Source: Henningerozyma blattae CBS 6284 (taxonomy: Eukaryota > Ascomycota > Saccharomycetes > Saccharomycetales > Saccharomycetaceae). Taken from it: a stretch of DNA of 64,000 bases. Where the stretch lies: NCBI RefSeq assembly GCF_000315915.1, contig NC_020192.1, positions 682,001 through 746,000 of the forward strand, written 5' to 3'. The notes beneath the pieces were generated by a model that was not told where the DNA came from, ran no database searches, and worked only from the letters and a program-made list of their open reading frames with translations. Shown here piece by piece: positions 1 to 26,156 of the stretch. The first letter of the stretch is position 1. Each line of letters opens with the position of its first letter. Made by a program: the position numbers and the translations under genes.

Positions 1-86
1 TTCTTGCATTATGAAGTAGTTTATTCTACTTATATACCTTAGCCCAAATAATTTCACAAAATCTAGGTGTAAGGATGTGACTTTGT

Positions 87-315
87 GTCACATGGTGCTT
101 AAATAATAGAATTTTCTAAATATATTAATATTTTAAAATATTACATTTTTAAACTAAAATAATAAAAATATTTAATATATATTTTAATAATATATTTATT
201 ATATTGATTTTTACATTTATATAATATAAATTATGATATTCAAATTAATATAATATATCAATTAAAGGCGCACATTATAATATGATTTAAATTTATTAGT
301 TCCGAACCAATTATA
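87..315 (+). other. Candidate point centromere (CDEI-CDEII-CDEIII)
   Basis: Seen: GTCACATG at 87-94 fits the CDEI consensus RTCACRTG. It is followed by about 190 bp (95 to about 288) that I counted by eye as roughly 90% A+T. Then comes TTCCGAA at 300-306, the invariant core of CDEIII, in the same orientation and followed by an A-rich stretch (331-337). This order and orientation match Saccharomycetaceae point centromeres bound by Cbf1 and the CBF3 complex. Context: the next gene is DNM1 with its 3' end toward this site, the same arrangement as CEN12 beside YLL001W in S. cerevisiae. Odd: CDEII is more than twice the S. cerevisiae length (about 80 bp) and a little longer than in Kluyveromyces lactis (about 160 bp). 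It also holds a small GC patch near 267-272. The exact CDEII/CDEIII boundary is approximate. Confidence 0.75.
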
Positions 316-1185
316 TAAGTTAAAAAAATAGATGTGAAAAATTAACAATTATTTGAATTGTGATTAAAATTGCAGGTAGTAAAGATATGGTATTCATTTC
401 AAGCTTTATAGTGTTATTATTTTTAAATGGCTCATTTTTTTTACCGTGATAAATTTGTACTATGTTATAATACCGTGTAATATGCATTAACAGAAATATA
501 TGGCAAAAATAAAATAATTACCGTATTCATTATGTATGTATATTCCAAATACTTCTTGTATCATTTTTCTTAGAAATAATAATAATAATAATCATTCAAT
601 CTACAAAATTTGTCATGAAAGTTACTAAGGTTACAAAGGTAATCTGCCTACCAGCTATCTGCAACACATGTTATCTTCAATGTTTGAACTAAAATGTCCA
701 GTATCATTTCCAATATTCTTTAATTCATATTTGCTGAAATATTCTCACAATTTATCTCATATATATAAGTATCTGTAAAATGTTTAAACAAAGAAAATAT
801 TAGTTGAGCAGTTCAGTAGAAAAGCTTTAGATTAGAGGACTGGTAATTTTCTAGGCAATATGAGCGATTAATGTCACTTTCACCATAAAATATCTGAATA
901 TCTGAATATCTGAAGACAGTTTCAAAAGCAAAGTTAGACGCCGAACGTATTGAATTATTTATTTCTAAATGTTATGCTAGAAACAGTTCTGGATAAAAAT
1001 TTGTAGATACAGAGGCTTTCTGTTACTAGAAGCATTAGTTATTGCTTGTGGTTATGACAATATTTCAAATAGTTTTCATGAAAACTGAGACATATGCAAA
1101 TATTTTTTTTGTTAATTCATTAAATCTGACTATATTCTAAATACATTTAAGAATGATGATATATACAGTTTTTAAATAAGAATAT
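316..1185. other. Pericentromeric spacer, no gene seen
   Basis: AT-rich DNA between the candidate centromere and the 3' end of DNM1. I see no open frame of note, no tRNA and no LTR similarity to the repeats elsewhere in the window. It contains a short TAA/AAT trinucleotide run near 577-592 and a threefold 'atatctga' repeat near 888-914. Confidence 0.6.
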
Positions 1186-3513
1186 TTACATTATATTATT
1201 GATAATAGCTGATGCCTTTTTATAAGTCTCCAATAGATTCAAACATTTTTCTCTATCTTGTGCTATCAATTCATCTTCCACTAAAAGTTCATTAAACATA
1301 GATTCCTTATATAGTGTTGTAACCAATCTATTTTGTACAGTCTCCTTACAGAAGTTTACCATAAAACACATAATAGCCTTTGGAACTTGGTCTCGTATCA
1401 TTTGTCTAATAATGCTGAAGTATGAATCTATTAATCTTCTCATGAGTTCACATTCTAGTTCTTCCTTTTCAGTTAGAACAAATTCATTATCCGTATCAGA
1501 GTCAATGAAAGATCCAGAATTTAGTCCTTGAGAAAGTTGTTGAATATTAATGGAGTTTGAATGGGCATTCGAAAATGGTAAGTTGTTTTCATTAGCTGGT
1601 TGGAAGCCATCCTTACCATTTTTGGAATCTTTACCAAAGAAGTAGTTGAGGAATGAATCTTTTGATGTTTCAACCCCCCCTGTTGTACTATCAACTTCGT
1701 CTATAAATGATGCTTTGGAGATATCATCGCCGGGTTGGACTATTGAATTAGAAAACATACCTCCCGCGGCACCTTTGTTTCCATCCTTAATATCTGTATC
1801 ATTGATAGTTAAAGAAGTATCAGATAAAATTCTTTTACTGACATTCTTACGTGTCTTTATTATATCCGCCATTACATCAGCAGCATTAACAAAGTTTGGA
1901 TGATTTGTATTAATATAAGACTTATGGATGTTAATTAAACTTTCCACATAAGTACATGTGGGGCCTAATCTTTCTCTCAATAAGTCACAAACAACTTCTA
2001 CTAACTTAGCTTGGAGTTTAGGGTATCTATTTAATTCTGGTAATGCTCCGCTATTAGATATTTTCATCAACTCTTCATATACTAACTCAACACAACGTAA
2101 AGAGGGATCTAATAATAATTGAATTTGAGGTTTAATTAAGAGATCAAATGCTAGTTCTGGAACAAATAATGAAGCTCTTGGACCTGTTGAATTACGTATA
2201 GCAGTTCGAATATCTAAAACGGATAAATTAGATGTTGGATTAATGCTTTTTAGAGAGGCCCCAAATATGTCATTATATATGTAGTATATTCTTGCTCCGC
2301 CGCATAATTCTTTTGTGCCAACATCTGTTGATGTACCATCAATAGAAGAAATAAACTTTGAGGCAAATTTATTCATTAAATCTAAAATTAAATTTGCTTT
2401 ATTTTCTGTTGTTTGTCCAACACTAACTCCATAGGAAACCAATTCTTGCTCAGTTTGTCCAATTAAAGTATTTAAACGTGTCTTAATATCAGGCAACTTT
2501 ACTTTAATATGATTTATTAAAATTTGATTTAGAATTTTTGCTAAATATCTTGTACCACATCTATTTGAAATTGTTCTATAGATAGGATGCCTATTAAAGT
2601 AATTTTCTTCATTTTCCAAACTTTCACGAACTGACTTATTCAGTGTAATGTCTTGTTGAGAGCGGTTTACAACACCAACAAACCCTAGTTTTAATGGATA
2701 GAGTTTTCCAGAAAGAATATCTAAGGCATTTGTACCAGAATCCATCAAATCCAATTTAGTAATGACACCTATAGTTCTTTTCCCTTGTGGATCTACTTCT
2801 CTTGCAAGCTTTAATGATTCAGAATTGACTAGGTCCACGTTTGCTGGTGATACGGCTAAAATTATACAATTAGGCGATGCAATATATTCCAAAATCAAGT
2901 TCTTAATTTGTTTCTCAATATCAGGTGGCTGTTCACCAATTGGAACCTTAGTGATCCCAGGAAGATCTACTAAAGTTAGGTTGAGAACATAAGGCGAGTG
3001 TATCTTCAAATTGATTGGAAGATTACTAATACTTTTATTAGAACCCGCAATCCTTTGAGTTTCTTCTTCGATCTCTTTTCTTACTTCTTCGAAATCATAA
3101 TATTTATGACCAGGGTTATGTAAGAACTCTGCCCATTCATTTGAATTAATACTTTTTTTTGTTCCCAAAGATGGCAAACTTTTAATGGAACCAGTAGTAT
3201 AATCATTAGTAGTGTTAGTATCCGAACTAGAGGAAGATGGATGCGTTTGACCAACATCCTTATCCATAGAACTATCATGAACTTCATCCTGAATAGTATT
3301 TATCAATTGTAGTACTAATGGACGTCTGGTTACAATACCTGTACCCCTAGGTAAAAAATCTTTACCCACCAATGTTTCGAGAATAGAGGATTTACCCGAT
3401 GATTGCGAACCAACAACAGCTAAAATTGGAAGATCAAGGGTATCAATACCAGAATCATACATTACATCCTGTAATTTGTTTACAGTTGGAATCAAATCTT
3501 GTAGTGATGCCAT
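1186..3513 (-). CDS. DNM1: Dynamin-related GTPase of mitochondrial fission (Dnm1)
   Basis: A 775-residue dynamin-family GTPase that assembles into rings on mitochondria and peroxisomes and drives fission with Fis1 and Mdv1/Caf4. Seen: G1 P-loop GSQSSGKS at residues 35-42, G3 DLPG at 183-186 and G4 TKLD at 252-255. A middle/stalk domain follows, then a variable low-complexity insert B around residues 560-680 and a C-terminal GTPase effector domain ending near 'KKASAIINNIM'. The first 30 or so residues are almost identical to S. cerevisiae Dnm1 (757 aa), so the ATG at 3513 is secure. A serine/threonine-rich insertion sits at about residues 80-120, between G1 and G2, where S. cerevisiae also varies. 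Its 3' end faces the candidate centromere, as YLL001W faces CEN12. The frame is intact and looks functional. Confidence 0.97.
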   Translation of the reverse strand: MASLQDLIPTVNKLQDVMYDSGIDTLDLPILAVVGSQSSGKSSILETLVGKDFLPRGTGIVTRRPLVLQLINTIQDEVHDSSMDKDVGQTHPSSSSSDTNTTNDYTTGSIKSLPSLGTKKSINSNEWAEFLHNPGHKYYDFEEVRKEIEEETQRIAGSNKSISNLPINLKIHSPYVLNLTLVDLPGITKVPIGEQPPDIEKQIKNLILEYIASPNCIILAVSPANVDLVNSESLKLAREVDPQGKRTIGVITKLDLMDSGTNALDILSGKLYPLKLGFVGVVNRSQQDITLNKSVRESLENEENYFNRHPIYRTISNRCGTRYLAKILNQILINHIKVKLPDIKTRLNTLIGQTEQELVSYGVSVGQTTENKANLILDLMNKFASKFISSIDGTSTDVGTKELCGGARIYYIYNDIFGASLKSINPTSNLSVLDIRTAIRNSTGPRASLFVPELAFDLLIKPQIQLLLDPSLRCVELVYEELMKISNSGALPELNRYPKLQAKLVEVVCDLLRERLGPTCTYVESLINIHKSYINTNHPNFVNAADVMADIIKTRKNVSKRILSDTSLTINDTDIKDGNKGAAGGMFSNSIVQPGDDISKASFIDEVDSTTGGVETSKDSFLNYFFGKDSKNGKDGFQPANENNLPFSNAHSNSINIQQLSQGLNSGSFIDSDTDNEFVLTEKEELECELMRRLIDSYFSIIRQMIRDQVPKAIMCFMVNFCKETVQNRLVTTLYKESMFNELLVEDELIAQDREKCLNLLETYKKASAIINNIM

Positions 3514-4325
3514 GGTATAAGATAAATAGCAAATTAAAATAATGAACGATTAGGAATAATGAGCTGGCTTCGTGTGTTATTTTATAAGTAAGTTATATAT
3601 AAATGACTCAACTCTCACCACAGTTCTCCGTATCTCTATTTGACTATCTGAATGTCTATCTATCTATATATCTATCCATCTATCTATCTATCTATCTATA
3701 TATATATATTCATGAACTTGTCACGAAAGAAACAGACTTTTTACTGTCGAGCTCTATAGTTTCTAGGCTAGAGGCTAGGTAGATGGAAATTCATCGGAGT
3801 GGATCAACAACCATCATTTGCAAAACGGATCGCATTATGTTTACAGTATTATTTTTACCCGAAATAACTCGGGTTTCAAAAGAAGAATTCCTGTAAGGTA
3901 ATGAAAATCTAATACCCGAAACTAGTGACACAAATTTATTGTTCGTAGAATATTGTGACGGTGAATAAAAATATGAGGGCAAAATTAATCTACAAGTAAC
4001 AGAATTATAAATGCTTCTTAAGGTGGAAAATCGAAGGTAGTGGAATCATTGATTAAATTATTTAATGAGACCCGAGGGAAATTATTTTGAAGTACAAAAG
4101 AATTATATATCGCTAGCGAATAATTTGACTTAAATGATAAAATTCGTAGTTAATATTTATAAATTTGTCTAATATACAGGATGCTTATAGAAGTAAAAAT
4201 GAGAACAAAATGAACATTATATACAATTATCAGAGAATGTATCATAATAATTGAATGCAAAATGAAAAGAACAAAGTAGTTGTAAGGTCTAGTAGCTAGA
4301 GGAAGCATAAGCTACCTTCATAAAT
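3514..4325. other. DNM1 promoter side / PIR 3' spacer
   Basis: Spacer between the start of DNM1 and the stop of the PIR gene. It holds the TCTA microsatellite listed separately. No further gene is supported; one 63-codon open frame (3791-3982, minus) has no recognisable features. Confidence 0.5.
3655..3709. repeat. TCTA/TATC microsatellite
   Basis: About 55 bp of imperfect (TCTA)n followed by (TA)n, roughly 140-195 bp upstream of the DNM1 start codon. Simple sequence; likely variable in length between strains. Confidence 0.85.
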
Positions 4326-4958
4326 CTAACAATTGATTAGTTCAAGAGCTTGTAAGTATACTTTAGTACATTGCTTACCTTGGCTTTCATCATATAAGTT
4401 ATAGAAATTACCGGACAAACATTGGTAAAAAACATCGTTAGCACCTATGGCCAAGTTACCCTGTGGTGTGATAGACCAACCTGCAGCGTAGATAGCACCA
4501 GCTTGTGGTGGTGGCCCATCAAATTGGAATTGTCTATTAGCGACAATAGAACCCACTCTACCTTTAGAGTCTAATAATATACCTTTTTTTAAAGTCATAG
4601 CCAAAGTACCCTCATTCATACAGGCTTGAGCAGCAAAAAAGGCATCCTCTGAACTTTGAGCTACAGAGGTAGAAGTTGCCGTTGTAGCTGAACTGGATTT
4701 CCCATCCAAAGTAGTTGTCTTTTTAGTAGACAATTCATCTGTTTGGGAAATAGAATCTCTCTTAGCTTTCTCAGTTGAAGGAGTAGATGTAGAGGTTGCC
4801 AATGGAAGAACTGCTATACCAAAAATGCCAGTGTAATCGGTCATAGCACTAGTGTATGTAGCATTTGGAGTCAAGGTAGACCATGGCTCGGATGGTTTGT
4901 AGGCAGCAAAAGCGCTAGAAACAAAGACAAAAGAGGATAAAACAGTTCTGTATTGCAT
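4326..4958 (-). CDS. PIR-family cell wall mannoprotein, CIS3/PIR4-like
   Basis: A 210-residue secreted wall protein. Seen: signal peptide at residues 1-19 (hydrophobic, ending AFAA), then a short N-terminal part containing EPWSTLTP as in S. cerevisiae Cis3/Pir4. A Kex2-type KR follows at 66-67, then a Ser/Thr-rich linker. The C-terminal domain has cysteines 113, 180, 197 and 210, exactly the C-x66-C-x16-C-x12-C pattern of the PIR family, with the conserved [20 protein letters not shown] core. Odd: the single repeat that should follow the KR and carry DGQ (the glutamine that forms the alkali-labile ester with beta-1,3-glucan) reads [12 protein letters not shown], with no DGQ. It lies between DNM1 and RTT109, which are adjacent in S. 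cerevisiae, so it was gained here or lost there. Exact orthology within the PIR family is not certain. Confidence 0.92.
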
Positions 4959-5993
4959 TTTATTGAACTTTAGAGTGTATAATAGGAAAGTGAGGGAAAT
5001 GAGACGTTAACAGTAGTTGTACTCGGTGGTGGTTTTTATTGGAATTAATTACAAGATGGTTTCCTACATTTTCAATTACTCTTGCCTATATATATTAATA
5101 TTCTTGACTGTCTCAACATAGATCAACGCATAAAAACAAAGTTGCATCAGCTATGGCTGATGGTAACGTTATTAATAGCTCTCCATCGTATTTTTCAGCC
5201 TATAAAAACAGGGTTCAAGCCAGCAACCAGCGCGAGAATGATTCCGATTCGGGACGCGTTTTAATTTCTAGTTTGGATTTTCGCGACCCCAGACATTCTC
5301 GTATAACACTTGAAGCTTATATAAGCTGAACTCATGCAGCTGAGGCTTAGTTATTATTAGTTATTAACAAGTGATGAGCATTTTACTTACACAGTGTCCA
5401 TAGTTGCTAACAATAGTGATAATGATTTTTTAATTAGGAATCATGGCCATAACCAACTTCTTGATTTTTTGTTTATCTGAGATCGAAATATCCTATTTTG
5501 CTTTTTCACTAACGAAAAAGCAGAGCATCTGAAAAGCTGATATAATTAAATATTAATTATATCCGTTAAAAGCTATTATATACCAAAGTATAAATTTTAA
5601 TATCAGAAAGTAACAATATTCGTATTGAAGTAAGAAATTTTGACGATAATAGTAGTGCTATAGACACGTACATATAGGCACGAATTTACGAAAGTTTCTA
5701 ATATACAAAGCCAAACCCTTACTTTTACAGGATGGAATCCTTTTCAAATGTAGTATGCATCGTAATTAGAGCCTCTGCCTTAATTACTTCTTTTACATAT
5801 GGATCTTCGTAATTTAAATAAATTTCATTTAAATTTGTGACGAAACTACCTGGTTAGATTCTACAACCCAATATAATATTTTAGTATATAAATAACAAAT
5901 GCTTATATATATGAATAAAACAGTTGCCAACAGATTAAAAGCAAGAGCACTACTGAAAAATGTTCAAGACCAACAATAATAATCGACAACTAT
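4959..5993. other. PIR promoter region / RTT109 3' spacer
   Basis: About 1 kb upstream of the PIR gene. The only motif I can name is a perfect MCB element ACGCGT at 5254-5259, about 296 bp before the PIR start. Related S. cerevisiae wall genes are cell-cycle controlled, so it may matter. A 60-codon plus-strand open frame at 5082-5264 has no features of a gene. Confidence 0.45.
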
Positions 5994-7331
5994 TTAATAA
6001 TTCTTCTTTTGTTTTTTTCTTGGTTGCAGAGTAGTGATTTCCGTGGAATGCTTACGCTGATAATCTGTATCGCCGCTAGCTTGAAGATTTTGTAATGATC
6101 CAGAATTTGTGGAATTGAACTCCCTGGATCCAATAATTTCAATCAAAGAAGCGTTTAGTCGATCAGTAACAAAGTCTCGAATATTCATGTATGATTCAAA
6201 AGCGCCTTCTTCTGTGTCATATTCCTCACCTGTTATATAACTTTTAATATACTCAAATTGCTTTTTCGATGATGGAATTACAATTTCATTTGGGTCTGGA
6301 TTATAATATTGCTGATAGTTTAATATTCCCGATATACCAATTACAGAAACTGTTTCACCTGAACAAAACTCTTGTCTTCCTTGTAACTCAGTCCAAAATG
6401 TTTCTAAATTAGTACTTTTGGCACGAGAGTCTGCAACTAAGTGGTGTAAAAATCTTGATTTTGGATCATCGGGAAATAAAGGTACAGAGTAAACAGCCAA
6501 ATCCTCTCTATTTTGACCGAAAATAGTACCAACATTCCAGTTCACATACTTTAAGTTACTTAGGTTCCTTGATATGCTGTTATAATCTTCACCAGGGATT
6601 AGTAATTTTGCAATTGTATTGCTCTGAAAATTTTCGATAATTGTATCATCAATTATATTTATCCACCACTTCATCAGATCGAAACCATTTAATACATGCT
6701 TATTAGGGTTATTTGAGGATTTTGAGAATAAATATTGCGGTGAAGGACGTGTAAATAAACTAATCTTTGTAACTATATTCGACGGGCACCTAAAGCTAAG
6801 AAAATGTATTTGATTGTCATCCACATATGGCTTCAAGTAAGTGGAATTCATTGAATTACGAAGAGCAAGTAAATGTAAAGATTGTAAAGTAGAAGTGGAC
6901 TTTGTTATCATGCTGTCTTTTTGTGATCCATAATTTCTTTTAAGGGGAATTACCTTCTGTAAATAATGATTTGGGTCTATGGATAATAGATACGAAATAA
7001 TTCTCTTTGTCAATTGTTTTATACTTATCTTGGAATTAATATATCCAGTAGTATCTGCTTTTGAAATAAATAATAAACGTTCAGATTCTGTTGGGTTATC
7101 CTTTTTTAACAAAATATATACATAAACTTCGAAACCAAATATTGTTCTTTCGTCTTTAAAAAAGGTAAAGAAATGCTGTGTCTTAATTGTTAAACTAGAA
7201 AGATCAGTTATTCCATAAGGGGCAGTGATAATAGGGTGTGATTCGACAGGAATACTTTGCAAATGTAATACTTCGAATTGTTGATCTTTTGGTAATGCCC
7301 CACCAATATATTGTGAAAAGTTTGGGAGCAT
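5994..7331 (-). CDS. RTT109: Histone H3-K56 acetyltransferase Rtt109
   Basis: A 445-residue fungal-specific histone acetyltransferase that works with the chaperones Asf1 and Vps75 on newly made H3 during S phase. Seen: the sequence aligns along its whole length with S. cerevisiae Rtt109 (436 aa). Landmarks are SKADTTGY (D93, matching D89), LMKWW with W222, the LFPDDPKSRF motif with D288/D289 and the autoacetylated lysine (K291, matching K290), and YITGEEYDTEEGA near the end. The tail is basic (PRKKQKK), as in S. cerevisiae. The longest open frame starts at a TTG at 7352; the first ATG is at 7331 and gives the expected length, so I use it. Next to SFI1, as in YLL002W-YLL003W. Confidence 0.96.
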   Translation of the reverse strand: MLPNFSQYIGGALPKDQQFEVLHLQSIPVESHPIITAPYGITDLSSLTIKTQHFFTFFKDERTIFGFEVYVYILLKKDNPTESERLLFISKADTTGYINSKISIKQLTKRIISYLLSIDPNHYLQKVIPLKRNYGSQKDSMITKSTSTLQSLHLLALRNSMNSTYLKPYVDDNQIHFLSFRCPSNIVTKISLFTRPSPQYLFSKSSNNPNKHVLNGFDLMKWWINIIDDTIIENFQSNTIAKLLIPGEDYNSISRNLSNLKYVNWNVGTIFGQNREDLAVYSVPLFPDDPKSRFLHHLVADSRAKSTNLETFWTELQGRQEFCSGETVSVIGISGILNYQQYYNPDPNEIVIPSSKKQFEYIKSYITGEEYDTEEGAFESYMNIRDFVTDRLNASLIEIIGSREFNSTNSGSLQNLQASGDTDYQRKHSTEITTLQPRKKQKKNY

Positions 7332-7464
7332 ACTATCTAAATAGTAAGTCAAATTAAGCTTATATTATCAACAGACCTTTTTAATCGTAAATCCTTGATA
7401 AAAATGATGCTTAAAATTATCACCATTAAACATATTTTATGAACATTGTATGTTTTATTTTCAG

Positions 7465-7505
7465 CGCGAAATTTTTGAGACCGATCTCTTTCTTACGACG
7501 CGAAA
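7465..7505. promoter_or_regulatory. Two SCB/MCB-type G1/S elements upstream of RTT109
   Basis: CGCGAAA (SCB, bound by SBF) occurs at 7465-7471 and again at 7499-7505. The second overlaps the MCB core ACGCG at 7498-7502. They lie 134-174 bp before the RTT109 ATG, in the 361 bp between RTT109 and the 3' end of SFI1. Such sites would give late-G1 expression, which fits an enzyme acting on new histones in S phase. Function is inferred from motif and position only. Confidence 0.6.
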
Positions 7506-7692
7506 TGATATATCTAACGCATATTGGTAAAGGCAAACAGTTGCTATACGTAGGGACATCGAGTTATATAATGAAACAAAAATAATTTAAAGCTTTAAAT
7601 TGTTTGCAGTTGAATTCCTAAGGATTTATATATTAAATTGAAAATATCTATTTGGACAAAACTGAAATAATTCAGTGCAGTTTTATGTAGCT

Positions 7693-10600
7693 TTAATGAG
7701 AAGGCGACGATTTCTTAGTATGGCTAATAGGAGATCCTTCAGCTGTTACATTATTACGCCCACCTTTCTCATTAGATAGATCAGTGCTATTATTCTGATA
7801 TGGAGGAATTTTGGGTATATTGCGAAGACCCTCAAATAATACCTTGGGTGTTGAAATATTTTCTGATGGTAAATTAGGTGTTGACAAAATATTCTCCTTT
7901 GTGTGTGATGATAAAAATATTTTTGGAGTGTCAGTTCTATTTAAAACTGTTTGTGTAAGAGATGATTTCTTTTGTGGACTTGGTATGGCCCGCCTAACAC
8001 CACCGTATCTGCTCTTGAAAGCATCGAACCTATTTCTCTTTATGTTACTGGAACCTGGTATTGTTTCTAACATACTCTTCAAGGGAGTTTCAGGACTCTT
8101 TACCTTTGATGTAGAAAATTCAGTGTTTCTTAGAAGTCTAAGTTTTTTTGGAGAACTCTCAGCACGTTTTCTCCATAATCTAATTAAACCTCTCAGTGTT
8201 GCTCTATCCCATCGTATCCTAAATCTTTTCGCTGTTGATTCATGGTTGCTAATTTTTAGGGATTTGATGCTCCATAATTTTAATACCCGCATTAAGATCT
8301 TTAAATTCGCAGTAAGCTGGAAATGGCTTATACGATCGTTTAAAAATCTAATCGATTCCTTTTTTCTCACCCAATATTTTAATAGCTTCAGTTTTAGAAG
8401 GTAATTTCGAATTATTATACTATCCGCAGAAAATTTTTTATAAATTTGCCAACGCCGCAAAAGAGCTTTGTAAGTTTGATTGAGCAATGCTGAGTCAGCT
8501 ACTGCAACAGCCGTATAATCCCATTCAGTATATCGACTAATTTTCCCCTTCCATCTGTCTAGCGTAGTACGCATAAGAAATATTTTTCTCTTTGAAGCAT
8601 AACTTTTCAGTTGAATATTTAGTTGACCATTGTGCTTTATTAGACGTCCAATTTTACGCTTTAACCTCAATAAAAAATAAAATTTTTGTAAATTAGTTAC
8701 TTGAAACTGCATATTTTGCAAGAGGATGCAGCGGCTTTTCCAAAGTTTTATATATTTCTTTAATATTTTATCCCGAATAATTTGATTTCCTTGGTATAAC
8801 ATCTTTTCTTGCCTTAGTTGGAGTTGTTTCCATCTCCTAATTATTTGTGTTAATTTTTGACGTTCATATTGTTTGAAAACTGAATCTAATCTACGCTTTT
8901 TACTTTCCAATTTTAACTGATATTTCTGATACCATATATCTAATTGAGGACGTAAAATATTATAACGATAGAGTGGAGTTTTGAAGTGTATATTGAGATT
9001 GTATATAAGTTTCCATTTAAGAATATACGGTTTGAGAGAGCTTTTCACACATAGTCTGCTAATTTTTACAAGAGATTTGAAATTTGTACACCAATGATTA
9101 AAATACTTAGCCTGTAATGCCGAGTGTTTTGAACTTAAAAACGCTTGGACTTGATGTTCCTCTTTTGTTTTCTTAAGCCATACTTGTTGCAGCAAATATT
9201 TCATTAAAATTTTATCTAATTTTAACCGAATATGCCTCTCAAGTTCCCTTCTTTTTACAATACGGCGAATCAGATCAACCAACATAGTTTTATGATATTG
9301 TTCCGCAAACTTTTCTTTCGATTTATTGTTTGTATAATTAATTAGCCATTTCTGAAAAAAAAATCTTTGCCTCAAGATATTGTACTGAAGACTCTTTTCT
9401 TCAAGAATATTTGACTTCTGTTTTTGATTTCTGACCGTATCTCGAAATCTGTGTATCATCAATACCTTTAAAGTGTTTTCATATCTAGTACAATATTTTT
9501 TTTCAGAATGTCTAATTTTCCATAATCTGAAGAATACTGCTTGCTTCCTTCTATTTATATTTTTTTTGCAATTGAGTATCCGGTCGTTCCTTCTCCTAAT
9601 GCGATTTAGTGACATCTTTATTAAGTGACTATTGTATTCTTGTATGGCTGTTCTTTCTTGCTTTTTTATATCACGGTATCTGTCTAACCACTTATAAAGA
9701 CCAGTTGATACCCCTCTAGAGTAGATGTAGCCATTATACCTGGCCTTGAGGGTATTTCTACTTCCTATCCATGTATGAAAGTACTTCGTTACTAGCCTCC
9801 TATTACAATGATACGTCAGTCTAGAATAAAGATCAATTCTTTTCATCCATGATTTCATGTATTTTTTTAGAAGCTGCTTATTTCCCGAGTATTCTGCCAG
9901 AGCTAATGACATATATATATTTTTAGGGCGCTCTAGGAAAGATAAAACGATTTGTTGTAATTCTGGTGTATTATTGAAGTTATTTTTCAACTTTTCATTA
10001 ATATTTGTTATATATGTGTCATCTAATGGATATATTTCATCTTCAATGAGATAATTCACATACCTCTTAAATATTTTTAGAAAATCCAATGGCATTTTAT
10101 TTCTAATTAAAAAAACTTGGATATTATTGTACAATCTATAAAATTTGTTATCGTCCCAGTATTGTTGATCTGCCCTATTATGATTGAAATCAACATCAGT
10201 GTTTCTGGATAATTTGCTATTATAATAAAAGCTTCGTGCAGAATTCGGGTCATCTGTATGACTTGGACTATTAATTTCATTAGTACTGTCAATATGTTCA
10301 TTATCAGATACTATAACAGCAGTATCGTTAAGATATGCTTTGTTTATGACTAGGGATTCGTTTTCAAGCCCAGCATCAACATGGCTATCTCTATTCCAAT
10401 TGTAACGATATTTCAAGTAGATAGAGTTCTCTTCCTCTAATATATCTTTATGATCCGAATTTAAATGCATTTTTGAAAGTAAACTTGAAATAGTTTCATT
10501 AATACAGGAATCCGTAGAACTTGTATAGTGAGTGTTATTAAACTTTGTAGAGTGTGTATTTAATTCATTAGAAAGTATTGTTAGGTCAGTTTCTAATTGT

Positions 10601-10746
10601 ACATTCATTAAATTGACTGGATGTAAAATTATTTGATCAGTACTAGGAGTTGTATCATTGTCTTTTTCATCTTCTGATTCAGAATTATCTTTTTTTGTCA
10701 AATATACGTGATCTCTAGATTGAGTTTCAGGTCCATTCGGGTTCAT
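7693..10746 (-). CDS. SFI1: Spindle pole body half-bridge protein Sfi1 (centrin-binding)
   Basis: A 1017-residue elongated scaffold that binds the centrin Cdc31 along its length and forms the half-bridge from which a new spindle pole body is made. Seen: an acidic, low-complexity N-terminus (1-200), then from about residue 280 to 880 a long array of degenerate repeats of about 30-35 residues. Each repeat carries an aromatic and basic signature of the type L-x-x-W-(K/R) (for example KYFHTWI, FRLWKIR, LKYWVRK, IRLWRKR), the classical Sfi1 centrin-binding unit. The C-terminal tail has many SP/TP sites (KSPETP, IPSPQKK, STPNLP, GSPIS), matching the Cdk1-regulated tail known from S. cerevisiae (946 aa). 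The start ATG at 10746 is the first in frame. Adjacent to RTT109 as in YLL003W. Confidence 0.93.
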   Translation of the reverse strand: MNPNGPETQSRDHVYLTKKDNSESEDEKDNDTTPSTDQIILHPVNLMNVQLETDLTILSNELNTHSTKFNNTHYTSSTDSCINETISSLLSKMHLNSDHKDILEEENSIYLKYRYNWNRDSHVDAGLENESLVINKAYLNDTAVIVSDNEHIDSTNEINSPSHTDDPNSARSFYYNSKLSRNTDVDFNHNRADQQYWDDNKFYRLYNNIQVFLIRNKMPLDFLKIFKRYVNYLIEDEIYPLDDTYITNINEKLKNNFNNTPELQQIVLSFLERPKNIYMSLALAEYSGNKQLLKKYMKSWMKRIDLYSRLTYHCNRRLVTKYFHTWIGSRNTLKARYNGYIYSRGVSTGLYKWLDRYRDIKKQERTAIQEYNSHLIKMSLNRIRRRNDRILNCKKNINRRKQAVFFRLWKIRHSEKKYCTRYENTLKVLMIHRFRDTVRNQKQKSNILEEKSLQYNILRQRFFFQKWLINYTNNKSKEKFAEQYHKTMLVDLIRRIVKRRELERHIRLKLDKILMKYLLQQVWLKKTKEEHQVQAFLSSKHSALQAKYFNHWCTNFKSLVKISRLCVKSSLKPYILKWKLIYNLNIHFKTPLYRYNILRPQLDIWYQKYQLKLESKKRRLDSVFKQYERQKLTQIIRRWKQLQLRQEKMLYQGNQIIRDKILKKYIKLWKSRCILLQNMQFQVTNLQKFYFLLRLKRKIGRLIKHNGQLNIQLKSYASKRKIFLMRTTLDRWKGKISRYTEWDYTAVAVADSALLNQTYKALLRRWQIYKKFSADSIIIRNYLLKLKLLKYWVRKKESIRFLNDRISHFQLTANLKILMRVLKLWSIKSLKISNHESTAKRFRIRWDRATLRGLIRLWRKRAESSPKKLRLLRNTEFSTSKVKSPETPLKSMLETIPGSSNIKRNRFDAFKSRYGGVRRAIPSPQKKSSLTQTVLNRTDTPKIFLSSHTKENILSTPNLPSENISTPKVLFEGLRNIPKIPPYQNNSTDLSNEKGGRNNVTAEGSPISHTKKSSPSH

Positions 10747-13700
10747 TTTATTTTTTTTAATGTATTGATTTTGAGCTCAGTACGATTAATTTGAACAATA
10801 TCATTTTCATCGAGCTCCTGTAGCCTCTTTTATTGACAATGCTTCCCTTTGAAAAGCTTTCCTTTAATTGCTCTGTTTTGTTTTTGCTGCCTCTGCGCAA
10901 TTTGTTTTCGCTGTGTGAAATATACAAAATTTAAAAGCTCTTCATTAATAAGTTCAATTGAAATCAGCACATAAAATAAATGGGAAAAGTATAAATACCC
11001 AACGGTTTTCATTGAGCTCATAGATGTTACATCTACGAGTTAATTTAGATATCATATGCTTAACCTGTAAAAGTATTTTGTCTTTACTTCTAGAAACTAA
11101 TATTCGCCATAAATTGTAATTTCAACTCTGCTAATATATATAATTCTAATATAATACTGCAACCAAATACAAGTTTTAATTGCTGGGTTGTATTAAATAT
11201 ATCTAATTGCAAAAATTAGGTATCTATGACCTGATTATTAACAAATTGAACGTGACAGGTATGACCAGAGGTGACCCTATCTAGATAGTTAATATAAGGA
11301 GATACATAGGGACAAAAAAAAGTTAAGTAAAATCATATTAAAGAAAAAAAATAACACAAAGATACTAAAAAAATTGTTTTAACTGCACTATATTAATATT
11401 ATTGTGAAATTTTACTGATCAAGATATAGCTGATATGCTTAATTATTTTTATACTTTGAAAAAATACACCAATTTCAATTCAAGAATATAGCAAAGTACA
11501 AAATCTAAACTGCACTAAGAAAAACATCATAATAATTAATTATTACACTTCTATTGAGCAAACTATGCTATTTCTTTAAACTGGTAGTTTGCAAAAGTTA
11601 TCCAGACTCAGTTTACCATGACCTTGATAGAAAATTAGACCAAATATTTAAGTAGAATGTCAAAAATTAGTTACACATTGAAGACAACATTTGCTAATTG
11701 TTTATGTATTTTAACCACTCATCATAACCTTTGAAGAACTCAGAAGCATAATGCATTTACTATTCATGCGAATGTATTTCTATCTTGAGAATATTACTCT
11801 TTCAGTTAAACTTCGAAATTTCCATGAAGTATACTCTAAACATCATTTTTTAGTTTATAATAGGGATAAATTTATTACCATTATAACCTATTTCAGGAGC
11901 AATAAACACTTCTTATACTCCTAAAAGTTGTGCTTTAAATTGTGAAGTAGATTACAGGCACAATAAAACTAAGATTAATAAAAATATTTTCACACAACAG
12001 GAGACACCTGTTACGGTTTTGTAAAATTTAATAAAATATTACAAAATATGCTATTTTTTGTCTAATGTATACTAATGTTTTGCCATTTAATCTTGCTGAC
12101 TTGTTGAAATGCTCTTGATTATTATAAAAAACTAAAAAAATTCAAATTCACTAGGCATACCTTCTCAAGTATTAAAATATAACACTGAACTTCTATGGAG
12201 GTGATGTATCAATTGAGGGATATAGTCATTCAATGACCATATAGCTTGGCTTAATTGTTCATACGTTTCATTGAAATTAAATAATATGCGGCTTATGGAA
12301 CTGGAATAGAAAAGATAGTACAATTACTAATTTTATCAAATTCAAATACACAATAATAGATAAAATATCTTGATAACACGTCTATACAATTACTGAAATC
12401 AGTTATCACTAATAAAGTTGTATTTGCTTATTTTTGATTAGGTTGAAATATGACAAAACGATTGCTACTAGATATAAGATTGTTTTTTCAGGTAGACAAT
12501 AATAACTTTGAATTTTCTTTCGAATTTCAAGGCTAAAGTATAAAGAGGAAAGCTCAGTGTCCTCTGATCTATTTAAAATTATTTAGATTACAAATTCTGA
12601 GCAGCTGATGCGATAAACAATGGATTACAAACTGTATCAAAGAGAAAAAAATCTGCTGTCAATCTAATAACATGAAGAATAATGAAAATTTCATCAATTA
12701 AAGTTACTTATAAGTACAACATAGAGTTACCCAATCAAAAATCGACAGAGAAGAGCATGATACGATTATTACCTGTAATAAAAATAAACAACGAAACTGC
12801 ATGAAAAGGACAATCAAAACTCAGAAAAGCTTGGAGAAATAACGATTACATTATTTAATAAAGTATATCCCACAAAAAGCTGTTACTGTGCTAAATATCT
12901 ATAGCAAGAATATATGGGAATTTTTAATAAAATTTTTGATTACTGATTAGGAAAGGAGTAAATTCAGACAAATAGGGTTACAGAATGTGTTGACTAAGAT
13001 TAAAAATGTCAGAATACAAGTAGCGAGTAAAACATAGCAAAGGTCAACATTAAAAGCACTGTATGACAAACTTTAGGAAGCTTAGTTTTAACTAATGAAA
13101 AGAGAAAGGCACCATTAAGAGAATGTATAATTGTAGTGGATGAAAGTATGGACATATTAAGGGCAAGGGAGGCTCGTGCAATGACTTGGATATGTTCGGC
13201 CGAGAAAGCTGGTGCGGCTGAAAGTCCAGATGCAAATGTGAAGACCGGAGATACTGAAATAGGAAATTGCTTCATGGTTGATATGAGAATATATGAATTA
13301 TCTTTGGGGCAACAAGATGAACTTCAATTGGGATTTAATAACTTAGAGAATGGGAATTTTTGTATACATAAGGAAAAACTCTGAAAACGAACAGGAGCTT
13401 CACAATTAATGGAAGAGTAATCGTCGAACCGACCCATATTGGAACTAGAGCCTGTGGATGATCGTCATAGGAATAGAAACTAAGAGCAACAGTGATGATA
13501 CTTCTACGAGAATATCTTGGAATGAGTGAAAAAATATTAGTAGTAATAGTAAAGATATCCAACTAAAAGCATTGCTCGAAAATGGGAAATAATTAGGTGT
13601 GCACATTGAAACAATAATATTCAAAATTAATTGTTACTTCATTCTTAAATTCAAACTTTTGATAAATAGGTAATTTTCCATGCAACGTTAGTAACAACGT

Positions 13701-15940
13701 ACAATAATTCTCAAATTTCTGATTGTGGACATCCATAGATATACTTTCTTTTGTACTTGACAGCGGTTGAATAAAATTATTGGAATTCAGATTATTCATG
13801 TAAAAGCTATAAAATATTTGCCAAAAATTTATAAGTAGATTTTATTTACGAGATTAATTACCTTTAGTATGGTAAATAACATGTCATTTTATAATATGTC
13901 AATATGCTTGATAAGTTGCTATCTACTAATCCATCTACAATAAAGGGCAAAAAATTGGAGCCACTAACTTAGTATCAAGAATTTTAATCTGAATATATTG
14001 GCTCTAGAGCTATCAGAAAGTTGAACGAAAATCATACTATTTGAGACCCATGAAATTGTAATTAATATAATAAGGTGTTGTATGCTTGCTTGAATACACA
14101 AAAAGAATAACATAAATGCTTTTTTCGATATAAAATGATGAATGTATTACCATTCGAGGGAAATATAGCTGGCAGTGTGTTGTTCACTTGTAGTTGTAAA
14201 TAAAAGTTTGGGATAAAGGCATCGACTACCACATATTTTATTAATATGCATTTATTAAGATAACCTAGTACGTTTTTAAATGGCGTCGATTAAATTTGTT
14301 TTACTGTCATCCAATTACGAAGTATTAACACATATAGTAATTCCCATTTCATATAAAGTTTTGTTGTTTTTATCAAAAGTTAAAATTTCTAAAGGTTTAA
14401 GTTGAATTAAATATAGTATTTTTTGAAAGGAAGTAAATTGCAACTGTCCTATCTTATGTATCTCTTTAGTGATGCTTCTTCTTTAAGTTAATATCATTAG
14501 TTCTGATGATCCAGATTTCTGTTTGTTATTTAACTCATACATTAATAGCAAGTATAATACCATAAATACCCTACCATAAACTAACTTCAGAGATCCTTTT
14601 GAAAAAGGGAAAAGACGCCATATAAGAAGTGAGGATCATATCTTTATCTTTATATTAGACTAACAACCTTGCCTGCTGCTTACTTGTAGCAACAATAAAA
14701 ATAATATTGTTTAATTTCCTACATCACTTATGCTTTTAAATACCTACTTGTTTTTACTGAATCTAGGCCTTCTGATTTTGAGGAAACTATTGTTCTCTTG
14801 CTATTCTTTTACCCTTTATGAATTCTTTGTTTACTTACCGACTTGGTTGTTTTTGCTGTTGTGGCTAGAGTAGAAAGAAATTTTCTGAATCTATAAGTTG
14901 TATAAGGGCTTTCACCGTTCAATGATGACTAGGCCTTTTGATAAACAATTGGGCTTCATAATAAGGAGAATAACAACCAAAAATTTATGAATACCCTGAG
15001 CTTTGAGGTGTGTACCCGAAGATGAAGTCAAATTTGCTACAAAACTTAATCAACATTTGAAAGATGTATCAGAACTTAAGAAAAGAAGGGACAAATAAGT
15101 TATGCTAGTTTATTTTTTTCCAGCAATACTAAACTCTCTACATTACATAAGCGGATGAACTAGTTTTGGCTATTATAGTTGGGTTAAGAACCTTTTGAAA
15201 GAAGCTAGGTAGAATCTGCTAAGCACTTGGGTAAAAATAATTTTACCAAAAAATACTATGCTGAAGGAACTAACAGTTCTCAATACAACATCACCTCCAA
15301 CGATTGCCCAGAGTGGTAATTACTCTTGATTATCCTGAATTTTTTCTACATGTTTCTTACTAAGAAAGGAAAAATATAACTTGGATGCGATAATTAAGAA
15401 TTTATTCGGTAATAAAGTGATGAATGCATATTGAATGTAACGCCTGTTAAGGAAAAGTTATCACTACTTCTTTAACTTTTGAAATTGCGAAAACTTTCAC
15501 TAAAATTATGCCCTATAAGCAAAACAAGTTGCCATAGTATTAATCTAGAATTTTTAATAGTTTTAACATTAATTTTAGCTATGCTGCATACATATGATTA
15601 GAATATCCCTCTAAGGGATATAAGAAGAGGCAAAATAAAGTAAAAAAATGGATATTATATATTAAATGATAAATGATCAATGGTAAATGATAAACTGAGC
15701 AGGATACATAGGAACACATAAATAAGAGTAATAAGTTAATAACTAGTTGCAGCTAACTGAGTGTTTTTATACTAAATTAATGTATAATTTATCTAATACT
15801 TTTTCATCGAATCGTAAACTATAATAACTTTCAAAAAAAAACAGCTCACAAGCAATAATTAGCTTTATTATAAGTTATTATACAGTGGTAAGAACTAAAT
15901 ATAAAGGTGTTTACTTCTATTTATAGTTCAATTTTTAGAC
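10747..15940. other. 5.2 kb gene-poor spacer between SFI1 and NSP1
   Basis: I can support no gene in this stretch. All open frames are under 90 codons. The least AT-rich part is about 13130-13280, where two frames overlap on opposite strands (13009-13275 minus, 13136-13384 plus). Neither has a recognisable domain, so I treat them as chance or as a decayed gene. No tRNA, no LTR related to those elsewhere in the window, and no point-centromere signature was seen. In S. cerevisiae the next gene beyond SFI1 is ORC3; it is absent here, so synteny breaks inside this spacer. Confidence 0.55.
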
Positions 15941-18782
15941 TTATTTGTTGATAGAGTTTAATTTGGTCTCTAAAGCAGCAGATGATTCATTCAATGAGTT
16001 TAATGCATCTAAATGTGTGTTTAATAATTTCACTAGTTGAGTATTTTCATCCTTATTACTAAATCCTAAACTTGTTGCTTTGTTAAATGTGTTGCTAACT
16101 GCGTTTATTTCTGATATTAAAGATGATAAGTTTGATGCCAACGAATTTAAATTATTGTCAAGCGTTTCAGCTGTACGATAAGCTTGTTCTCTCTTTTGAT
16201 CGTTATTATTTGCCGCACTGCCATTGCTTGAAGATAATATATCAGCCAACAGAGAATCAGTTTTCTTTTCATAATTATCTAAGAATATCTCCAACTCGTC
16301 TTGCTGTCTTTCAATATATTGTAAAGATTGGTCAATCTTATTTTGATTTTGTTCAGCAGTAACTGCATCAGAATACAAACGACTAATTTCTTCGCCACCT
16401 TGGACTAGAACTTCATCCCATTGGTTTACTTTTTTAGAATAAATATCAAATTGGCTAGCAGAATTAGATAGTTGACTTGTCCATTTTGTGATTAAGTCAT
16501 CCAAGGTTTTATTATCTAAAGATACAGGTTTAATTTCTACCGGTTTAGAATTTAATGGTTTTGGTTTATCAGTTTTAGAAGTTTCGGTTGTGGAAGAAGT
16601 TGGAGCAGGAGTTGATTTAGATTCTTCTTTTTTATCTGTTGAAGATCCTAATGAAAATCCTGGTTTAGCAGCATCATCTTTCTTTTCTCTGAAAGAAAAT
16701 GCAGCAGGTTTTGCTGTTTCAGTTTTTGTATTAGTAGTGCTGTTACCAAAAGAGAAAGATTGTTTGGCTTTAGAATCACTTTCTCCTGCTGAAGTAGTAG
16801 TGGAACCTCCAAAGGAAAATGCTGGCTTAGTTGTAGAAGTCTTCTCTTCTTTTGAAGCGGAGGATCCGTCTAAGGAAAGAGTTGGTGTTGGAGTAGTATC
16901 TTTCTTTTGAGTAGATGTGAATGAAAATGCGGGTTTAGAAGTTGTACTAGATGATTTTTTATCATCTGCTGCAGACGTTGTAGAACCAAGACCGCCTAAG
17001 GAAAATCCAGTAGTTGTTGCATTAGTGGAAGTAGAATCAGCTTTCTTTTGAGTGTCAAATGAAAAAGTAGATTTTGGCAACTCATCCTTCTTCTCGGCTC
17101 CAAAGGAGAATGCAGGTTTCGAAGATTCAGTTTTCTTTTCATCTGAAGTTGTTCCAAACGAAAATGCAGGTTTTGAAGGCTCAGTTTTCTTTTCATCTGT
17201 AGCTGCTCCAAAAGAAAACGCAGGTTTTGAAGATTCTGCTTTCTTGTCATCTGTAGTTGTTCCAAACGAGAATGCAGGAGTTGAGGATCCAGACTTTATA
17301 GTAGAAGATTCTGTTTTCTTCTCTGTAGAATCTTTATTACCCATCGAGAAAATATTAGGTTTTGATGATTCAGATGTTTTAGCACTCAGGGAAAACCCTG
17401 AAGGCTTTGCAGATTCATCTTTTGTCTGAGTGGTACTGGAGATATTAAAAGAAACCCCGGATGGTTTATTAGGATCATCATCCTTTTTAGCAGCATCGAA
17501 GGAGAAGGCCGGAGTGCTTGTCTTATTTGTAGACGATAAATTAAATGCATTATTAGTGGAGGCACCGAATAAACTACCTGAAGATTTGACAGCAGAAGAG
17601 TTATCAGATATGCTTGCAGGGGCTGCATTTCCTGTAGAACCAAACATTGATGAAGTACTTTGATTGTTGACTGTATTCTTAGCACCAAGAATACTAGAGG
17701 GAGAATTGTTGGCAGATGAATTATTAGCACCGAATAAACTTGGCTGACTGTTTTCCTTTGAAGTGGCATCGTTAAGATTTGTTGATGTAGCACCCAACAA
17801 ACTACCAGCATGTTGAGAAGTAGTATTAGAATCTGTTTTACCAAAGATACTAGTAGACGATTTGGTTGTAGTATTATTCCCTAAGACACCTGTTGCAGGT
17901 TGAGATGAGGTGTTAGTAGCAGAAGTCCCAAATACACTTGAAGTTGGTTGTGAGGTAGCATTAGCTGTAGAATTTCCAAACAAACTTGTTGCCTGTTGAG
18001 CTGTTGTATTAGTAGCTGATTTACCAAACAGATTAGTTGCTGGCTGAGATGTGTTGTTATTGTTAGCACCACTACCGCCAAATATACTTGAATTTGATTG
18101 AGTGGCAGTATTAGCGTTAGCACCACCAAATAAACTTGTTGAAGGCTGAGAGGTGGTATTGTTATTATTAGATGTAGAATTAGTAGAGCCTCCAAATAGA
18201 CTATTTGAGGTGGAAGCATTATAACCAAACCCGCCGAATGCAGGTTTACTAGGAGTATTGGAATTTGCTGCAGCACTGAACCCACTAAATTTAGGTGCAT
18301 TATTATTAGTATTATTATCACCAAACGTATTCTTACCAAAGGATGAATTATTGTTTGAATTTAAATTACCAAAGGCACTACTACCAAAGGAAGAAGTATT
18401 ATTAGTATTACCAAAGGCACTAGTGCCAGCGGAGCCACCAGTGGTAGAATTGTTATTAGCAGCTGAACCAAAGGCACTAGTATTGGTATTAGTATTATTA
18501 TTTGAAGAATTATTCAAGTTACCAAAGGGAGAGGCTGCATTAGAATTGGTATTGTTACTGTTATTGAATGAAAACCCACTGGAAGAACCAAAGGCATTAC
18601 TAGTTCCTTGCGTATTAAAATTCACTGGAAAGAGGATCAATGAACACAATATTATATATTATGGAAGAAGTATTATAATGTTAGTAAAATGAAAAATTTT
18701 AAAAAAAATAAAGATGATACTGGAAAAGAAATCACATCATAATATCTGTGATAAACTAATAGCATAGAATAGTAAACATACT
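15941..18782 (-). CDS. NSP1: FG nucleoporin Nsp1 (spliced; exons 18782 and 15941-18624)
   Basis: An 894-residue nuclear pore protein, central to the Nsp1-Nup57-Nup49 channel complex and to the Nup82 complex. Seen: N-terminal half rich in Asn, Ser and Thr with FG and (S/L)FG repeats (residues 1 to about 370). The middle is built of [11 protein letters not shown] FSFG repeats separated by charged spacers (to about 660). The C-terminal domain of about 210 residues has heptads ([15 protein letters not shown] onward) that forms the conserved coiled coil. Splicing: the continuous open frame begins at a TTG and its first nine codons look unrelated. A canonical intron at 18625-18781 joins A at 18782 to TG at 18624-18623, giving ATG AAT TTT AAT. 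S. cerevisiae NSP1 has the same one-base first coding exon. Divergent from GSH1. Confidence 0.95.
18625..18781 (-). other. NSP1: NSP1 intron (157 nt)
   Basis: On the minus strand the intron starts GTATGT (18781-18776), has a perfect TACTAAC branch site (18686-18680) and ends in a pyrimidine-rich stretch with CCAG (18628-18625). Branch to 3' splice site is about 55 nt. The 5' site follows a single A that becomes the first base of the start codon, so translation of the proper start depends on splicing. Confidence 0.92.
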
Positions 18783-25900: not shown

Positions 25901-26156
25901 CGTATATAATGTATTGCAATTGTTATTGAAACGAATATTTGATGTTGAAATACTTCTGAAAGAATATCTATCTAAAATGTATTCTCATTTAAATATATAC
26001 TAACATTTTACCCTCAGCGGGAAAAATGAAATTTCTGTAATCACGTGCCAACAGGAAATTATAAAAATATTACGAATTAAGAGAAACGAATTATTACTAT
26101 TACAGTGGTATAAACGAGACTTTCATTTTGGTATATTTTCTGATTCAGTGAACAGT

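Follow-up and report, generated by a model that had tools for sequence, protein, structure and literature searches.

A probable point centromere beside DNM1 in Henningerozyma blattae, with a long CDEII and conservation running past CDEIII

Introduction

In the sections drawn on here, the 2011 survey of Saccharomycetaceae point centromeres describes CDEII as uniform in length within a species and variable between species, and CCGAA in CDEIII as invariant throughout its set (Gordon et al. 2011, PMC3141009). The accessible text of a later atlas of 138 species reports that CCGAA has been lost in Huiozyma, that CDEII lengths are consistent within a genome, and that the longest CDEII of all, “nearly 200 bp in Henningerozyma blattae”, belongs to the species studied here (Helsen et al. 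2025, PMC12925627). The same text proposes that CDEII length changes by jumps of about one helical turn, keeping Cbf1 on the same face. A long CDEII in H. blattae is already in print and is not new.

On the protein side, the sections consulted of a structural study of the Saccharomyces cerevisiae CBF3 complex state that Cep3 reads a TGT/CCG pseudo-palindrome, in which changes to TGT hurt far less than changes to CCG, and call the central G at position -5 completely conserved (PMC6077249). Its structural model places the Ndc10 DNA site about 21-30 bp downstream of CCG. In addition, Ndc10 crosslinks to thymines to the right of CDEIII, the footprint being 56 bp. Work cited in the same article credits Ndc10 with raising the affinity of CDEIII binding but not its specificity, an argument against Ndc10 reading the sequence in S. 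cerevisiae. In Kluyveromyces marxianus, as far as the consulted part of that report goes, a CDEII of 165 bp lies under one footprint, 227 bp in the median; the authors' conclusion is a single microtubule site. Here we describe a candidate centromere of H. blattae, compare it with its counterparts in the same genome, and examine the conservation around CDEIII.

Results

The window, that is the whole 64,000-nucleotide stretch analysed, corresponds to C8:682001-746000 of the H. blattae genome (14.04 Mb in ten scaffolds, C1 to C10); Tetrapisispora blattae is an older name of the species. Three elements follow one another on its forward strand: CDEI, a putative Cbf1 site (GTCACATG, 87-94), a CDEII of 195 bp with 90.3% A+T (95-289), and CDEIII in its canonical 26-bp frame (290-315), with CCGAA at 302-306, on the same strand as CDEI. 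This frame counts 8 bp for CDEI and 26 bp for CDEIII with CCG at positions 13-15, which sets CDEII at 95-289. GTCACATG fits the Saccharomycetaceae consensus NNCAVBTG, and the A+T content of CDEII lies within the 76-98% range of the family's point centromeres (PMC3141009). A preliminary description of this DNA had read it as a point centromere, with CDEI, about 190 bp of roughly 90% A+T and a TTCCGAA core in the right order and strand; each of these elements was recovered, and the reading itself gains support from nine like loci, their neighbours and the genes for Cep3 and Ndc10 described below. The GC patch that it placed near 267-272 is present as GGCGCAC (267-273, forward strand), but its sequence is not kept at the other loci.

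Within the window, GTCACATG alone is at chance level (1 observed, 1.10 expected) and TTCCGAA alone is below its chance count (2 observed, 6.48 expected). A TCACRTG...CCGAA pair with a spacing of 160-230 bp occurs once, as against a rate of 0.135 per 64 kb across 200 windows simulated by an order-3 Markov model, and the most A+T-rich of the simulated pairs reached 76.4%, as against 90.3% for the CDEII of the window. Hence, it is the combination of motifs, and not either short motif alone, that is significant, because simulated windows rarely pair the two and none does so with as much A+T.

A genome scan for TCACRTG and CCGAA separated by 172-232 bp returned 68 places, versus 29 for the reversed pattern. 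A+T-rich places were picked by eye from 80 letters of each of the 68; ten regions were fetched, and nine fit. The tenth, C2:1985000-1994900, was rejected as a centromere, having a CDEII of 81.5% A+T and a mismatched CDEIII. A script check of 30 of the 68 places (all 30 being on C1 to C3) found four spacers with at least 85% A+T, which are the four that had been chosen, the next having 81.1%. The remaining 38 were judged by eye, and seven of them, checked over 80 letters, had 59-75% A+T. On C8 itself, only the window's copy is A+T-rich by eye among four matches, and the next by eye, at C8:644,138, has 75% A+T over 80 letters.

The nine loci have CDEIIs of 189-197 bp (mean 192.7, s.d. 2.5) with 86-92% A+T, and a CDEIII pattern is common to them all. 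The preliminary description had proposed looking for a CDEII of about 190 bp on every chromosome, and all nine loci found bear this out, with a single CDEIII pattern. TCACRTG is present in 9/9, as is CCGAA, both being motifs by which the loci were selected. CDEII length is thus uniform within H. blattae, as in other Saccharomycetaceae point centromeres. Eight of the ten scaffolds carry such loci, one each on C2 to C8 and two on C1; none was recognised on C9 or C10.

The gene beside the window's centromere is DNM1 (1186-3513, reverse strand; 775 aa), identified by Dynamin_N, Dynamin_M and GED domains and by several homologs named DNM1. Beyond it lie a 210-aa ORF, RTT109, recognised by its HAT_KAT11 domain, and an ORF of 1017 aa that was named SFI1 by eye. 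In S. cerevisiae, the genes YLL001W-YLL003W adjoin CEN12, with DNM1 as its neighbour. The location predicted earlier from DNM1/CEN12 synteny agrees with this, DNM1 being confirmed beside the copy. On the other side of the centromere, about 4.9 kb (C8:677,200-682,087) hold neither an ATG-started ORF of at least 70 aa nor an Rfam match, an ORF-poor stretch that is odd for a compact yeast genome.

Genes that neighbour centromeres in S. cerevisiae lie near 8/9 loci. Their names were assigned by eye, for some of them with Pfam as well, LOC1 being without a Pfam match. The C1 centromere at 1.78 Mb (CDEII 191 bp) has PHO80 and RRP6 as neighbours, as at CEN15, and that of C3 (189 bp) has DEG1 and LOC1 (CEN6). 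CDC10 lies about 4 kb from the C4 centromere (189 bp; CEN3) and PMI40 about 0.5 kb from the C5 centromere (192 bp; CEN5). A trehalase gene is found at both C6 (194 bp) and C7 (193 bp), with ECM15 in the former (CEN2) and ATP16 in the latter (CEN4). The second C1 centromere (C1:20,999-21,219, reverse strand; CDEII 197 bp) has RMD1 and an ECM15-like gene, neighbours of CEN4 and CEN2; together with C6 and C7 it makes three loci with CEN2/CEN4-type neighbours. The exception is C2 (194 bp), which its neighbours leave unplaced. An Rfam search over the nine loci returned only two tRNA genes, both in one locus.

The CDEIIs themselves have little sequence in common. Among the nine loci, no clear alignment was found (36 pairs, z -1.1 to 2.5, several at 2.0 or above), and neither CACRTG nor CCGAA occurs inside any of the nine. 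Composition is uneven: the last 60 bp before CDEIII have 14.8% GC versus 8.5% in the rest (nine loci, permutation p 0.0002), and the window's GC patch falls within this GC-richer part. Lengths spread over 8 bp, and tight phasing among the nine loci is not evident. By eye, the CDEII of C7 has a long inverted repeat in its CDEIII-proximal part.

Conservation at CDEIII is lopsided. Columns were numbered from the first C of CCGAA as 0, over nine loci, and the p-values take A and T at 36% each as background. CCGAAC (302-307 in the window) is invariant in 9/9, its CCGAA part by selection. To the left, the TGT half-site columns (-12 to -10) are not conserved, and the window reads AAT at 290-292. The central G at -5 is found in 6/9 loci and is T in the window copy; G at -3 is also found in 6/9 and is present in the window copy, while columns -8 and -1 are mostly T. 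Two traits of an S. cerevisiae-type CDEIII are consequently missing, the TGT half-site at -12 to -10 and, in the window copy, the central G.

To the right, conservation runs 19 bp beyond the 26-bp frame, from +14 to +32, or 316-334 on the forward strand of the window (TAAGTTAAAAAAATAGATG), a candidate Ndc10 contact stretch. The columns T+14, T+19, A+21 and A+23 are kept in 9/9 loci, T+18, G+29 and A+30 in 8/9, and G+17 and G+32 in 7/9. Columns with p<0.01 number 10/19 in this stretch, 0/27 from +33 to +59 and 0/22 from -45 to -24; columns -23, -22 and -19 also reach p<0.01 and are nearly plain A or T. In leave-one-out scans, a matrix built from eight loci was run over the ninth on both strands, in nine rounds. 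The extension matrix ranked the true sites 2, 1, 3, 1, 6, 2, 3, 1 and 1 of about 19,750 positions. The CDEIII core ranked first of about 19,750 in 9/9 tests, at loci that had been selected by CCGAA, and in the window copy core and extension each rank first. By comparison, the left half (-12 to -1) gave ranks of 3 to 4,785 and the stretches taken as controls, +36 to +54 and also -45 to -27, gave ranks of 632 to 16,860. When two of the three loci with CEN2/4-type neighbours were left out, the remaining seven ranked 8, 2, 2, 1, 28, 1 and 1. Over 40 randomly placed sets, no median rank fell below 1,074, although the best single rank was 6.

The accessible text of Helsen et al. 2025 (PMC12925627) makes no mention of conservation in a CDEIII 3′ extension. 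Nor was a report of one found among titles and abstract openings on yeast CDEIII in the open literature, and the extension may be known.

Genes for two CBF3 subunits, Cep3 and Ndc10, were found in the genome. Ndc10 is recognised by PF16787 (E 1e-104). Cep3 is encoded at C2:1,655,102-1,656,517 on the reverse strand, is identical to TBLA_0B07000, and matches PF16846 (E 7.7e-17) and the zinc cluster PF00172 (E 1.3e-4). It has 471 aa versus 608 in the solved S. cerevisiae chains, which it matches with E 1e-8. In a homolog search over 5.8 billion proteins, 8,000 candidates were scored, and the protein itself was the only one at E<=0.001; such a search needs shared 5-residue words, so that the result speaks of divergence and not of an absence of relatives. 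H. blattae Cep3 is short and strongly diverged.

The distribution over scaffolds deserves separate treatment. On C9 and C10, scans with TCACRTG...CCGAA (172-232 bp), CACRTG...CCGAAC and TCANNTG...CCGAAC led to no recognisable centromere. A 15-letter CDEIII pattern with up to two mismatches gave 335 places versus 321 for its control, with none on C9 or C10 among the matches listed, which lie within C1-C2. A 25-letter pattern gave 8 places and no recognised centromere there; it missed the C5 centromere and could miss others. A 24-letter pattern gave 237 places versus 392 for its control, with 12 exact places, of which nine are the centromeres and three lie elsewhere on C2, C3 and C4, and again none on C9 or C10 among the matches listed (one-mismatch matches being listed as far as C3). 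All these searches are keyed to the motifs named, and a centromere variant without them would escape.

The scaffold ends are informative in this respect. The repeat at C9:1-1337 matches the left end of C1 (C1:81-4358) in reverse orientation at 89-99%, and otherwise, among the candidates scored, only C3 at 32 kb (77-81%). The right end of C10 (C10:491,483-492,930) matches C3:35-714 at 90-96%, and otherwise, among the candidates scored, only C7 at 405 kb (67-75%). C9-C1 and C10-C3 may hence be two true joins left open in the assembly, which would explain why neither C9 nor C10 yielded a centromere. The repeats shared by these ends are adhesin-like tandem repeats.

On C1, one centromere lies 21 kb from the scaffold end and the other at 1.78 Mb. 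The former (region C1:16200-26100) is complete, has 20 consecutive N (25,886-25,905) at a distance of about 5 kb, and scores highest of all nine loci over the full CDEIII. To its right, about 4.9 kb hold no ORF longer than 63 aa. The simplest reading of two centromeres on C1 is probably a false join somewhere in that scaffold. Two scaffolds without a centromere and one with two look like an assembly fault, and the data suggest that the ten scaffolds represent nine chromosomes. The consulted sections of the atlas discuss, for CBS 6284, one case in which the centromere count differs from the reported chromosome number, and note that their estimate agrees with pulsed-field gels (PMC12925627). Our scaffold analysis offers a possible explanation for this mismatch.

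Discussion

Taken as a whole, the sequence of window positions 87-334 is best explained as the point centromere of its H. blattae chromosome and the equivalent of CEN12, a reading that we consider very probable. The genome holds the motifs in their order, a uniform spacing of 189-197 bp at nine loci and the synteny, and it encodes Ndc10 as well as a Cep3 that carries a zinc cluster. Against this reading stand the T in place of the central G in the window copy and the unconserved TGT half-site, as well as the C2 locus unplaced by its neighbours, the lack of a found centromere on C9 and C10, and the two on C1. In the model that we propose, Cbf1 would bind CDEI and CBF3 would bind CDEIII through the CCG half-site and bring in Scm3 and Cse4. 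One Cse4 nucleosome would presumably form on the A+T-rich CDEII, the long spacer being wrapped more fully rather than carrying a second kinetochore. Ndc10 would read the 3′ extension (+14 to +32), making up for the lost TGT half-site.

The chance-level counts of CDEI and the low count of TTCCGAA, each taken alone, and the missing central G could be held to indicate a relic or a chance combination of motifs, with the functional centromere elsewhere. This is highly improbable, since no simulated window contained an equally A+T-rich pair, the window's copy is by eye alone in its A+T content among the C8 matches, and its core and extension both rank first in leave-one-out scans. Another proposal concerns the long CDEII, which could wrap a pair of Cse4 nucleosomes, or one octamer together with a half particle, making every kinetochore a doublet, possibly with two microtubule sites. 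One nucleosome wraps 147 bp, less than the 195 bp available. The consulted part of the K. marxianus work states that kinetochores purify partly as doublets. The same source gives the single 227-bp median footprint and the single microtubule site for the 165-bp CDEII, and the nine H. blattae CDEIIs are free of internal CACRTG or CCGAA; such a doublet is improbable. By analogy with K. marxianus, one nucleosome is likeliest on the H. blattae CDEII too.

For the extension, position alone suggests that it may be an Ndc10 contact, the conserved stretch overlapping the modelled Ndc10 place (21-30 bp) only in part. On this basis, we propose tentatively, as a possibility that falls somewhat short of an even bet, that CBF3 reading has shifted to the right in H. 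blattae: the TGT half would be eroded and the 19-bp stretch near Ndc10 would be sequence-specific, beside a diverged Cep3 and the longest CDEII. Alternatively, the extension could be no CBF3 contact at all, and represent another element adjoining the centromere, for instance a replication-origin or transcription-roadblock site, or an echo of shared ancestry. Yeast centromeres often lie near replication origins, and the nine loci go back to fewer ancestral ones, three of them having CEN2/4-type neighbours. We regard this as rather unlikely, given that the spacing to CCGAA is fixed, that no clear alignment remains among the CDEIIs of these loci and +33 to +59 show nothing, and that the signal, although weaker, holds (ranks 1-28) without two of the three CEN2/4-type loci. 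If the shift in CBF3 reading is true, centromere recognition has been re-partitioned between CBF3 subunits with CCGAA retained. What is added to the known long CDEII is a conserved block near the modelled Ndc10 place and beside an eroded Cep3 half-site, a concrete and testable prediction that, if borne out, would reveal how CBF3 evolves along with the DNA of the centromere.

Compared with described systems, the closest is the account of centromeres in the same species by Helsen et al. 2025 (PMC12925627), which, in the text consulted, gives a CDEII of nearly 200 bp and uses a CDEIII search motif of 26 bp; the conservation described here runs beyond that motif. The S. cerevisiae centromere (CDEI-II-III, about 125 bp) resembles that of H. 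blattae in element order, Cbf1 site, A+T-rich CDEII, CCGAA core and CBF3 genes. The unusual length of CDEII noted in the preliminary description is real, 195 bp versus 79-88 bp in S. cerevisiae as given in the text consulted, but had already been published for H. blattae. Unlike S. cerevisiae CDEIII, that of H. blattae does not conserve the TGT half-site. An A-rich box, GTTAAAA, lies at +17 to +23 in H. blattae, whereas in the one S. cerevisiae sequence compared, a CDEIII probe in the consulted part of PMC6077249, GTTAAA occupies +6 to +11 and is nearer by about one helical turn. Finally, the CDEII of K. marxianus, according to the sections drawn on, is 165 bp long, roughly twice the S. cerevisiae length and about 30 bp less than in H. 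blattae, and lies under a single nucleosome footprint.
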